Assembly: GCA_021299265.1 (NCBI GenBank)
Contig: JAJTGP010000071.1
Span: forward strand, 1-34,166
DNA length: 34,166 nucleotides
Source: Hyphomonadaceae bacterium
Lineage (GTDB): Bacteria; Pseudomonadota; Alphaproteobacteria; Caulobacterales; Aquidulcibacteraceae
Reading direction: 5' to 3'
Shown here: positions 5,730-11,975 of the stretch, piece by piece
Layout of the letters: the number at the start of each line of letters is the position of its first letter
How positions within the stretch are numbered: the first letter of the stretch is position 1
The notes under the pieces: model-generated
What the model was told of the DNA's origin: nothing
What the model saw: the letters and a program-made list of their open reading frames with translations, nothing else
Databases searched by the model: none
Translations under genes and position numbers: made by a program

Positions 5730-5823
5730 CAGAAGCGTTTAGCGCAGCATTTAGCCGCTTGCGAACCCCCTTGCTGCGTTGACCTTTTGGCTTCGTCAGC
5801 CTAGCGCAGAGAAAAATGAAAAT

Positions 5824-6888
5824 ATGGAACTTATGCTCATGAAAACTCCCCGCGCTTTCTTCAAACCCCTCGCCATTGGTGCGCCTGCGCCATACCGTGA
5901 TCTACCGATTAAGGTGGAGCGGATGATCCACTTTGTGCCGCCGCATTTGGAGAAGGTGCGCGCCAAAGTGCCCGAGATTGCCAAGGGCGTAGACGTTGTT
6001 TTGGGCAATTTGGAAGACGCTATTCCGGCAGACGCGAAAGAAGCCGCTCGCGCAGGCTTTATCGAGATGGCCCGCGAGACCGATTTTGCCGCTTTAGGGA
6101 CAGGTCTATGGACCCGGATCAACTGCCTGAACAGCCCATGGATGCTGGACGATGTGATGGAAATCGTCGCCGCCGTCGGCGACAAACTCGATGTCATCAT
6201 GGTGCCTAAGGTCGAAGGCCCTTGGGACATTCACTATCTCGACCAAATACTGGCCCAATTGGAAGCCAAGGCTGGCGTCACCCGTCCGATCCAATTGCAT
6301 GCGATTCTGGAAACTGCTGAAGGCGTGGCCAATGTGGATGCGATTGCCTTGGCCAGCCCACGTATGCAGGGCATTAGCCTTGGTCCCGCCGATTTGGCAG
6401 CCAGCCGCGCAATGAAGACCACCCGCGTTGGCGGTGGCCATCCGGGCTATCGCGTGGTCGAAGACCCCCATGCCGATGGACGGGCGCGCGTCAGCGTTCA
6501 GCAAGATTTGTGGCATTACACCTTCGCGAAAATGGTCGATGCCTGCCAAACCGCTGGCATCAAACCCTTTTATGGCCCGTTTGGCGACATCAAGGACCTT
6601 GAAGCCTGCGAGCAGCAATTCCGCAATGCCTTCATCATGGGCTGTGCAGGCGCTTGGTCTCTGCATCCAGACCAAATAGCGATCGCCAAAAAAGTCTTCA
6701 GCCCTGATCCGGCCGAAGTGGCTTTCGCCAAGCGCATCCTAGAAGCCATGCCCGATGGCAGCGGTGTCGCCATGCTGGACGGCAAAATGCAAGATGATGC
6801 CACGTGGAAGCAGGCGAAAGTTATGGTCGATAGCGCCAAATTAGTTGCCGCCAAAGACCCCGATATGGCCGCCGCTTACGGCTTCTAA
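5824..6888 (+). CDS. mcl: HpcH/HpaI-family CoA lyase, L-malyl-CoA / beta-methylmalyl-CoA lyase-like
   Basis: [68 protein letters not shown]...[18 protein letters not shown]...[27 protein letters not shown] matches malyl-CoA lyase-type CitE-like enzymes. ORF opens at 5779; ATG at 5824 or 5839 is the likely start. Confidence 0.85.
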
Positions 6889-7004
6889 GCCCACTTGCCT
6901 GTGAGGCGGGCAGGCATTGCCCGCTGGACGGGCGGGTGCAGCTGTACCGACAGGCAACACAGTCACGCCCTTGCCCTTAAGGAAACTTGCCGTCAAATGG
7001 CGCC

Positions 7005-9686
7005 ATGCCCGATACCAATCCTGCGTCCGCCCGCGATTTAATCAAAGACTTAGGTGCCCTGTTAGGGGAAGTGATCAAAGATCAACACGGCGACGCCCTG
7101 TTTGATGCCATTGAGTCCATACGTTCTGAATCGGTGCGCGAATATCGCGGACAAGCCCCTCGGGGTGCGACCGTCAGCTTGTTGGACGGGTTAGAACTGG
7201 ATGAAACCTTGGTCTTCATCCATGGCTTCTGCGTGTTTTCGCAATTGGCCAATCTGGCCGATGATTATGTCAGCCGAACCCAAGCCGTCCGCCAAGACCC
7301 GCTGGCTTTACTGAACACACGGCCAGACCTGACGGCGGAGCATGTCTCTGACGTTCTCGCCAAAATGGTGATCGCGCCCATCCTGACGGCCCACCCTACC
7401 GAAGTGCGCCGCAAAAGCGTGCTGGACCGCGAAGCCGCGATTTCGGATACATTGGATGCGCGCATTGACCTTGTTGATGGACGCGACATGCGCGTTGAGC
7501 GGCTGCGCCGTGAAATCCGGCTTTTGTGGCAAACCCGCGTGCTGCGTGGTGAGCGTATTGAAGTGGCCGATGAGATTGCTAATGTCGCTAGCGTTCTTGG
7601 CCGCTCTTTCCTGAAAGAAATGCCCAACCTCATTCGGCGGCTGGAGCGTCGCTTGGGCAAGGAGTTGCCGGGCATTTTGCGCGTCGGCTCTTGGGTCGGT
7701 GGCGACCGTGACGGCAATCCTTTCGTGAATGCCCAAACCCTGACCCATGCGGTGATGTCGCATGCCAGCCTGTTGCTCAGCTCTTTCCTGGAAGAATTGC
7801 ATCAGTTGGGCAGCGAATTATCGATTTCGACTGAACTGACAGCCGTTTCGCCAGACTTGGCGCGCTTGGCAGAGGCCGGACACGATGCCTCGCCCCATCG
7901 GGCGGACGAGCCTTATCGGCAAGCCATTCGGGGCATGTATGCCCGTCTGGCCGCCACCTATCAGGCCATTACCAAGAAGCCCCCTGCCCGCGCAACGGAT
8001 TTGGAGGCCTTAGCTTATCATGGCCCAAATGAATTGATTGCTGACCTAGAGATCGTCGGGGAATCGCTGCGCACCCATGCTGCAGGCGATGTCGCCGATG
8101 GACGGCTGGAACGCTTGATTACGGGGGTGAAGGTCTTCGGCTTTCACTTCGCCCAAATGGAATTGCGCCAAAACTCAGACGTGCATGAGCGCACAATTGG
8201 CGAATTGCTGGCTGCTGCCGGCCTAGAGACCGATTATGCCAGCCTATCTGAAGAAGCGCGGATGGAGGTTTTGCTCGCACAATGGCGCTCTCCCCGTAAT
8301 CTGACCACGCCTTATGCCAATTATGGCCCAGAAACACTCAAAGAGCTGGAAGTTTTTTGGCAGGCTGCGGCCATTCGCACTGCCGTAGGCGGGGAGGTGT
8401 TACGCCGTGTGATCGTCTCCAAGACCGACAGCGTCTCAGACCTTCTCGAAGTCGCCTTACTCCTCAAGGAAGGCGGTCTTTTCGCTCAATCGCCCGACCC
8501 CAGCCCGCAAATTGCGATTGCGCCTCTGTTTGAAACCATTGCGGACTTGCAGGCGAGTGAAGCCATCATGCGCACTTGGCTGGCCTTGCCAGAGGTCGCT
8601 CGTGCGCGCGCTGCGACCAATCCCGTGCAAGAAGTGATGATTGGCTATTCCGACAGCAATAAGGATGGCGGCTATCTGACGGCCAATTGGGAAGTGCGCG
8701 GCGCGATTGGTCGTTTGGTCGCTTTGGGCAAGGAATTAGGCGTCACCATGCGCTTCTTCCATGGTCGCGGTGGCTCCATTGGTCGGGGCGGCGGCTCTTC
8801 CCGCGATGCGATTGCCGCCTTACCTGCTGGGAGCATAGAATCGGGCCTGTCGGTGACCGAGCAAGGTGAAGTCATCTCCTCAAAGTATGGCCATCCAGAT
8901 AGTGCGCGCGTATCTCTGGAGACTTTGGTAGGGGCGAGCCTTGAAGCAGCCCTCCACCCAGTTGACCACGCGCAAGAGGAAGCCCTTGCGCGGATTATGC
9001 CGCGCTTGAGCGATCTGGCCTTTAAAGCCTATCGCAGCCTAGTCTACGACACAGCTGATTTCGCACGCTATTTCCACCAGTCGACGCCTTTAAAGGAGAT
9101 TGTGGACCTGAAGATCGGCAGCCGTCCTGCCGCCCGTACGGCTTCGGGTCGGATTGAGGATTTGCGCGCCATTCCTTGGGTGTTCAGTTGGTCGCAAGCC
9201 CGCGTCAATCTTCCAGGCTGGTATGGCTTTGGTAGTGCCATTGCGGGCTATCAGGAAGCCGTGGGGCCATCGGCGATCGAAGAGCTAAAGGCGCTCTACC
9301 AATCGAGCCCTTATTTTGCGAATCTCGTCTCCAACATCGAAATGGTGTTGGCCAAGGCCAATCTGGAGATTGCGCGCCGCTATAGTGAGTTGGTGGACGA
9401 CCAAGACATGGCGAAAGCCATCTTTGCCCGCATCGAGGCCGAATGGCAGAAGACATTGGACGCCTTGCAGCTTGTCACCGGGCGGGCGGAACTTGTCGGC
9501 AATAATCCGGCCTTGGCCCATTCCATCAGCCTTCGCATGCCCTATCTCGACCCACTGAACTTGCTGCAAGTGAAATTGATCAAGCAATTGCGCGCAGGCC
9601 CCGAGGGAGCACAGGCCGAAACCGTCAAAAAAGGCATTCAATTGACGATCAACGGCATTTCCGCCGGCCTGCGCAATACGGGCTGA
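7005..9686 (+). CDS. ppc: Phosphoenolpyruvate carboxylase
   Basis: VIAPILTAHPTEVRRKSVLDRE, GSWVGGDRDGNPFV, MIGYSDSNKDGGYLTANWEV, FFHGRGGSIGRGGG signatures. ORF track starts at TTG 6987; ATG at 7005 is an alternative. Confidence 0.97.
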   Translation: MPDTNPASARDLIKDLGALLGEVIKDQHGDALFDAIESIRSESVREYRGQAPRGATVSLLDGLELDETLVFIHGFCVFSQLANLADDYVSRTQAVRQDPLALLNTRPDLTAEHVSDVLAKMVIAPILTAHPTEVRRKSVLDREAAISDTLDARIDLVDGRDMRVERLRREIRLLWQTRVLRGERIEVADEIANVASVLGRSFLKEMPNLIRRLERRLGKELPGILRVGSWVGGDRDGNPFVNAQTLTHAVMSHASLLLSSFLEELHQLGSELSISTELTAVSPDLARLAEAGHDASPHRADEPYRQAIRGMYARLAATYQAITKKPPARATDLEALAYHGPNELIADLEIVGESLRTHAAGDVADGRLERLITGVKVFGFHFAQMELRQNSDVHERTIGELLAAAGLETDYASLSEEARMEVLLAQWRSPRNLTTPYANYGPETLKELEVFWQAAAIRTAVGGEVLRRVIVSKTDSVSDLLEVALLLKEGGLFAQSPDPSPQIAIAPLFETIADLQASEAIMRTWLALPEVARARAATNPVQEVMIGYSDSNKDGGYLTANWEVRGAIGRLVALGKELGVTMRFFHGRGGSIGRGGGSSRDAIAALPAGSIESGLSVTEQGEVISSKYGHPDSARVSLETLVGASLEAALHPVDHAQEEALARIMPRLSDLAFKAYRSLVYDTADFARYFHQSTPLKEIVDLKIGSRPAARTASGRIEDLRAIPWVFSWSQARVNLPGWYGFGSAIAGYQEAVGPSAIEELKALYQSSPYFANLVSNIEMVLAKANLEIARRYSELVDDQDMAKAIFARIEAEWQKTLDALQLVTGRAELVGNNPALAHSISLRMPYLDPLNLLQVKLIKQLRAGPEGAQAETVKKGIQLTINGISAGLRNTG

Positions 9687-10454: not shown

Positions 10455-11975
10455 CTAATCCTGCTCAATCCGGCCAACCCGAAACGCACCAAGATCGGCA
10501 TAAACCGCCTTATCGGCAAAGGCGAAGGCCGCATCATCGACCCGAACATCGGTCCGGCGCAAGTGACGCGACAGCGTTAAGCCTTCCAAGGTGCGGCAAC
10601 GCGATAGCGCGACATAGGTCTGACCATGGGCAAAGGCACCGCGTCCAAAATCGACATGGACAGCATCAAAGGTCAGGCCTTGGGCTTTGTGGACCGTCAG
10701 CGCCCAAGCGGGCCGCAGCGGCACTTGGCGGAAGACGCCCACTGCTTTGCGCTGGGGCACACCTTCGGGATCGGGCTCGTAAATATAGCGCTCCCAATCG
10801 GCCGGTTCGATCTCATGCACACGGCCACCGATGCGGACGAAGACCGACGTCTTACCCAGATCAACCACCGTCGCCAAGGTGCCATTGACCGAGCGTTTGT
10901 CTGGATCATTGCGCAACAGCATGACCCGCGCGCCCACCCGCAACAAAAGGTCGCTGTCGGTCGGGAAAATGCGCTCGTCAAACTGGCCTTCGACTTTGGC
11001 ACCATAGGAGGCTTCTGGCCCCGATAGGCGCGCCATCTCCAGATCATTGATCCGGCGGGCGGCTTCATTGGTGGTGGTCAGAACGATGGCCCCATCCCCA
11101 TCCTTGTCGGAAAAGGGCGGGGGTTCACCCACCACGCGAGAATCTAAAAGCTCCGCATCTTCCATCGTCGGCCGTCCGCGTCGCATCCGGTCCAACAGAC
11201 CCAAGAAGGCCGCGTCAGATTGGCGAAACACCTGACACAACTCAATCGACGTCCAAGACAGTGACTTTACCGACGGCGCATCAAAGAAGTAAGGCCCGCC
11301 AAACCATTGTTCGAGGATCGGCTCATCCTCGCGGCTGACGACGGGTGGCAATTGCGCACTATCACCAACGCACAAAAGGCGGACGCCACCGAATGGCCGG
11401 GGCACACCTCTGTGCAAGCGCATGGACCGATCAATCGCGTCCATCAAGTCTGAGCGCACCATGGAAATCTCGTCAATCACCAGAAGATCGAGTGTTTTCA
11501 ACATGCGGCCTTCGCGCACGCGGCGGACGTCCTGCGGTTGGATCATGGCGGGCGGTAATTTGAACAAGGAATGGATCGTCTGACCACCGGCGTTTAATGC
11601 CGCAATGCCCGATGGGGCGACGATGGCAGCTTTGAGGTCGGTCTCGTCCATAAAGGCTTTGAGGAAGGTGGTTTTGCCGGTACCGGCGCGGCCTGTCAGG
11701 AACACCCCGCCTTCGGCCTTCTCAATCCGCTCCGCCACTTCACGGTAAGGCCCGTCGTCGAGCGAGAGGGCGACTGCCTTCGCCGGGCCTTCGATCCGCC
11801 CATGGCCACCTTGCAAGCGCGCCATCGCCATGGCCCCATCGGCATCATCGACTTTGGCGACGACGGTACCATTGCGGATCAGCACAGCCGAAAAACCGCT
11901 TCCGGTATCCACCAGACGCGCAATTCCGCCCCGCAATGCCATTTCCCGCACTGTTTTCACGTGTGACCTTTTCAA
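10455..11975 (-). CDS. PIF1/RecD2-like superfamily 1B ATP-dependent helicase
   Basis: Walker A FLTGRAGTGKTTFL, Walker B LLVIDEISMVRSDL, GDSAQLPPVV, C-terminal ALTVHKAQGLTFDAVHVDFG and TYVALSRCRTLEGL. About 75-aa N-terminal extension before the motor. Confidence 0.9.
   Translation of the reverse strand: MKRSHVKTVREMALRGGIARLVDTGSGFSAVLIRNGTVVAKVDDADGAMAMARLQGGHGRIEGPAKAVALSLDDGPYREVAERIEKAEGGVFLTGRAGTGKTTFLKAFMDETDLKAAIVAPSGIAALNAGGQTIHSLFKLPPAMIQPQDVRRVREGRMLKTLDLLVIDEISMVRSDLMDAIDRSMRLHRGVPRPFGGVRLLCVGDSAQLPPVVSREDEPILEQWFGGPYFFDAPSVKSLSWTSIELCQVFRQSDAAFLGLLDRMRRGRPTMEDAELLDSRVVGEPPPFSDKDGDGAIVLTTTNEAARRINDLEMARLSGPEASYGAKVEGQFDERIFPTDSDLLLRVGARVMLLRNDPDKRSVNGTLATVVDLGKTSVFVRIGGRVHEIEPADWERYIYEPDPEGVPQRKAVGVFRQVPLRPAWALTVHKAQGLTFDAVHVDFGRGAFAHGQTYVALSRCRTLEGLTLSRHLRRTDVRVDDAAFAFADKAVYADLGAFRVGRIEQD

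Follow-up and report, generated by a model that had tools for sequence, protein, structure and literature searches.

The 98-nt gap between the co-directional genes mcl and ppc of a Hyphomonadaceae bacterium raises the question of whether a structured RNA is encoded between them and, if so, what such an RNA would do. The DNA analyzed (34,166 nt, referred to here as the window) is one contig from a genome of 3.4 Mb, and the named members of its genus are Aquidulcibacter, Hyphomonadaceae bacterium UKL13-1 and Candidatus Phycosocius. The product of mcl (5779..6888, + strand) is an HpcH/HpaI aldolase of the (beta-methyl)malyl-CoA lyase family (Pfam HpcH_HpaI, 4.9e-27), the best solved relatives of which (PDB 6kin, 2.5e-165; 4l7z, 4e-164) give alignments that begin at residue ∼21; alignments with homologues of the family mostly begin at ∼10–21, and the true start probably lies ∼19 codons downstream of the TTG at 5779. 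The downstream gene, ppc (6987..9686, + strand), encodes phosphoenolpyruvate carboxylase (NCBIfam PRK00009.1, 3.5e-299) and starts at TTG 6987 or at the in-frame ATG 7005; the choice is ambiguous, with AGGA only 3 nt before the TTG and no ribosome-binding site near the ATG. The truA gene upstream of mcl and a PAP2 phosphatase gene that abuts ppc both lie on the opposite strand, and mcl-ppc therefore looks like a two-gene unit. The linkage is present in all nine genus genomes examined, which is only consistent with co-transcription. In other inspected genomes of the family, no sequence resembling the gap was found 3′ of mcl, and ppc itself was often not found. Elsewhere in the window, 10455–11975 (minus strand) encodes a PIF1-like helicase that contains a UvrD_C_2 domain and falls far short of the cut-off scores for the RecD2 and TraA families.

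A first-pass annotation had read the gap as a three-way junction formed by an outer and two inner stems, with a pseudoknot-like option and no U-tract. The three stems can all be found in the sequence, the outer one (6895–6902/6950–6957) being recovered at 100% by repeat search, and the absence of a U-tract was confirmed. Across the eight species compared, however, the junction shows no pairs changed on both sides, and its pairing is that of shuffled sequences (78.1% versus 78.2%). The outer stem is paired in 71.9% of cells with no compensatory change, is complete only in the window and UKL13-1, and has an ensemble probability of ∼0. The second inner stem (70% of cells paired) and the pseudoknot are likewise devoid of covariation, each being broken in several of the eight species. 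The first inner stem (6906–6912/6918–6924) is real, but not as a junction arm, since it is the tip of a longer hairpin. The junction is thus a misreading of a sequence in which the TGCCTGT of the 5′ arm has several complementary copies downstream with which it can pair.

The longer structure is an extended stem-loop at 6895–6935, separated from the mcl stop codon by 6 nt. It comprises a 5′ arm (6895..6912, + strand; TTGCCTGTGAGGCGGGCA), a terminal loop of 5 nt (6913..6917, + strand; GGCAT) that alignments indicate to be 1 nt shorter in P. bacilliformis, and a 3′ arm (6918..6935, + strand; TGCCCGCTGGACGGGCGG) that is not followed by a U-tract. The arms are defined by mutual covariation and by the minimum-energy fold, and repeat search detected an inverted repeat at 6892–6912/6918–6938. 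The minimum-energy fold of a 67-nt stretch is this single hairpin (−35.8 kcal/mol; z −3.4, with 3 of 200 shuffles folding as well), which in the window is 4–5 kcal/mol more stable than the three-way junction (−30.6 kcal/mol, or −31.7 if extended). A longer stretch of 117 nt shows no exceptional stability as a whole (z −0.87), and the signal is therefore the hairpin itself. The probability of the extended hairpin is 0.86–1.0 in the sequence contexts of the window and, for six of the eight species, approaches 1 in most contexts; the two exceptions, LE19-59.1B and P. bacilliformis, have a weak version of it, and the former can instead close an alternative hairpin within the 5′ arm, at the same place.

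Covariation was assessed in an alignment of the mcl-ppc gap from eight species of the Aquidulcibacter/Phycosocius genus (Hyphomonadaceae), several of which are closely related. The extended hairpin is paired in 84.7% of cells, compared with 34–43% in slid registers, and 5 of its 18 pairs have changed on both sides, namely 6895–6935 (U-G, G-U, C-G, A-U), 6902–6928 (U-A, A-U), 6903–6927 (C-G, G-C), 6904–6926 (G-C, U-A, A-U) and 6905–6925 (G-U, G-C, C-G). Its covariation score was reached by none of 500 shuffles, it ranks first in both compensatory score and pairing among all 18-pair helices in the alignment, and the same helix is proposed, unprompted, by RNAalifold. Because plain shuffles ignore relatedness, a tree-based null was also used, in which substitutions were reassigned along each branch of the ppc tree to give 2000 null alignments. 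None of these reached the observed values, either for compensatory score (76, against a null mean of 14.3) or for paired cells (122, against a null mean of 73.5), whereas simply counting the pairs that changed on both sides, a cruder measure, gave a value that 52 of them reached. In the middle of the stem it is the structure that has been kept and not the sequence; the counterpart arms in C4_MAG_00010 (GCCTGAGACG and CGTCTCAGGC), for example, form ten perfect pairs with a partly different sequence. Absence of covariation, which the first-pass annotation had named as grounds for rejection, therefore tells against its junction and its pseudoknot, while the wider proposal, that the mcl-ppc gap encodes a structured RNA, is borne out by the extended hairpin.

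A covariance model of the hairpin matched eight of the nine genus genomes strongly, each of them once and in the mcl-ppc gap (E values from 1e-10 to 3e-7). The exception is P. spiralis, which has the most diverged ppc and retains the mcl-ppc linkage and part of the leader that precedes ppc. Apart from the same hairpins as seen on the opposite strand, no second copy was found below E 0.18 in the nine genomes, and there was no convincing match near mcl or ppc outside the genus. Spacing is invariant, with the TGCCTG of the hairpin located 91 nt before the TTG in all seven Aquidulcibacter-type genomes, and TGCCTG and GGCAG are themselves invariant in the alignment. On this comparative evidence, 6895–6935 is a real, selected and genus-restricted RNA stem-loop. 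The first-pass annotation had recognized no known riboswitch, and a search of Rfam families, riboswitches included, similarly returned nothing at the gathering threshold (searched to E 5, the best match had E 2.9, far below the gathering score). A literature search for a hairpin in an mcl-ppc operon also yielded no match. The element was not found described, although elements of this kind are already known.

Among the roles suggested in the first-pass annotation, the one preferred here is RNA processing at a site within an mcl-ppc transcript. The hairpin would be an intercistronic stabilizing or processing stem-loop in a putative mcl-ppc transcript, a reading in which confidence and doubt are about evenly balanced. 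It would require mcl and ppc to be co-transcribed, the stem-loop forming once ribosomes leave the mcl stop codon and then blocking 3′-to-5′ exonucleases. Cleavage of the transcript in the leader would leave the stem-loop to define and stabilize the mcl 3′ end, and the mcl and ppc messages could thereby accumulate to different levels. A stable stem-loop does lie directly 3′ of the upstream gene of a co-directional pair, and compensatory change indicates that its structure is under selection. Stem-loops at the 3′ ends of upstream genes act in the proposed manner in operons subject to selective RNA processing and stabilization (SRPS), such as the cip-cel operon of Clostridium (Ruminiclostridium) cellulolyticum (PMC4423207, PMC8219983), with which mcl-ppc shares a stable stem-loop in that position, a putative operon and the lack of a canonical U-tract. 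However, mcl-ppc consists of two genes only, the products of which are not known subunits of one complex, it belongs to a different phylum, and its processing is predicted from sequence. Intercistronic hairpins in the alphaproteobacterial puf operon of Rhodobacter capsulatus are described as setting differing degradation rates for segments of the message (Klug and Cohen, 1990, as cited in PMC7509114). The puf hairpins thus resemble that of mcl-ppc, which would likewise lie within a polycistronic message, but they are multiple and accompanied by cleavage sites that have been studied experimentally, whereas mcl-ppc has a single hairpin. Against the stabilizing role, mcl and ppc are also linked in P. 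spiralis, where the hairpin is missing, and only a weak extended helix is predicted for LE19-59.1B and P. bacilliformis; the comparison draws on only eight sequences, several of them from close relatives.

The main rival, which is possible but on balance unlikely, is that the hairpin is a U-less or Rho-assisted, perhaps partial, terminator of mcl, with ppc expressed from its own promoter in the leader, possibly as a leaderless mRNA or one with a very short leader. As in intrinsic (Rho-independent) terminators, a stable GC-rich hairpin directly follows a gene; in contrast to them, it lacks a U-tract, lies 6 nt from the stop codon and is situated between co-directional genes 98 nt apart. In E. 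coli, ribosomes strongly repress terminators located a few nt after a stop codon (PMC4824070), which is where the mcl-ppc hairpin is placed; taken together with the missing U-tract, this excludes a U-tract-bearing terminator. Gene ends were surveyed in 400 kb of the close relative UKL13-1, a simple script based on codon usage serving to predict the genes. Of 127 post-stop hairpins, that of mcl-ppc was the most stable, and the U-tract that it lacks was present in 18 of the 35 stable hairpins in gaps of up to 400 nt and in 10 of the 16 stable convergent-gene hairpins in short gaps. Most terminators between convergent genes in this genome thus carry a U-tract, but a U-less terminator has some probability, since a minority of convergent pairs (e.g., at 253501 and 167513) possess stable U-less hairpins. 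The former, at 253501–253555, is very stable (GCCCGACCTCTGTGCCC/GGGCACAGAGGCTGGGC), and such cases hint at a class of U-less 3′-end hairpins in the genus.

The promoter half of this rival draws on the leader (about 6936–6986, + strand; CAACACAG, CTTGCCCTnAAGGAAAC), a candidate ppc ribosome-binding and/or promoter region without well-supported structure. Its length is constant in seven species, and its identity to the window (70–100%, compared with 42–79% at ppc 4-fold sites) exceeds the conservation of the hairpin. It could represent either a ribosome-binding region or a promoter from which ppc is transcribed as a leaderless mRNA (TTGCCC, 16–17 nt, YCAAA(T), 5–6 nt, ATG), a spacing that recurs in most members. 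A promoter scan nevertheless found nothing, and 156 upstream regions yielded no genus consensus and no two-box signal beyond that of shuffles, although these searches lack the power to decide the matter. Were a ppc promoter present in the conserved leader, the hairpin would simply be the end of mcl. The two Phycosocius species each have a six-codon ORF (MTFNVA* and MRPNKV*; about 1480–1510, + strand, in L009, and on the minus strand in L010) whose terminal TGA overlaps the ppc ATG (ATGA), which suggests translational coupling of this ORF and ppc; in the other species, the matching stretch is in frame with ppc from a TTG.

It is improbable that the hairpin region is instead a cis-regulatory leader of ppc, whether a riboswitch, a protein-binding leader or a start-site switch in which CGGGCA in the 5′ arm pairs with TGCCCG at the ppc start. 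The leader sequence is conserved, but there is no Rfam match and the three-way junction does not covary; the ligand-sensing leader raised in the first-pass annotation gained no positive support, the hairpin being fixed to the mcl stop codon and lacking a conserved pocket-like loop or bulge. For the start-site switch, CGGGCAGGC (6907–6915) can pair with 7002–7011, one of these pairs changes compensatorily between two clades when read by hand, and the resulting fold is the minimum-energy structure for one of the stretches tested. The extended hairpin dominates the other contexts and is transcribed first, some of the extra pairs are lost in MiE, C4 and LE19, and the ppc side is coding (Met-Pro-Asp). 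Pairing of the hairpin with the ppc start was rejected as unstable across species and contexts. The narrower proposal of a genus-specific switch, in which the 5′ arm would alternate between the stem-loop and the ppc start and translation or decay at the mcl end would set PEP carboxylase synthesis, is very doubtful; if true, it would couple glyoxylate/acetyl-CoA metabolism to anaplerosis.

There is also little to recommend action of the dyad as DNA, either as a regulator-binding site or as a cruciform. It is a near-palindrome with the invariant motifs noted above, yet the mid-stem sequence changes freely while pairing is kept, which a protein-binding dyad would not need, and several of the kept pairs are G-U on the + strand, which can be formed by the RNA of that strand but not by DNA. 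A REP-like repetitive element, also suggested initially, can be dismissed for the genomes examined, since despite a palindromic, intergenic sequence and a loose 17-mer pattern from the 5′ arm that is commoner than its reversed control (77 versus 28), the hairpin occurs no more than once per genome, a 151-nt stretch has one match in its own genome, and those 1-mismatch sites that were inspected do not adopt the fold of the mcl-ppc hairpin.

The leader immediately before ppc is under stronger constraint than the hairpin and may hold expression signals of ppc itself. If the hairpin does stabilize mcl mRNA, it would offer a simple example of how stoichiometry is controlled in an operon of an alphaproteobacterium, by means of a covarying intercistronic stem-loop whose place between two genes of carbon metabolism is kept in most members of a bloom-associated freshwater genus.
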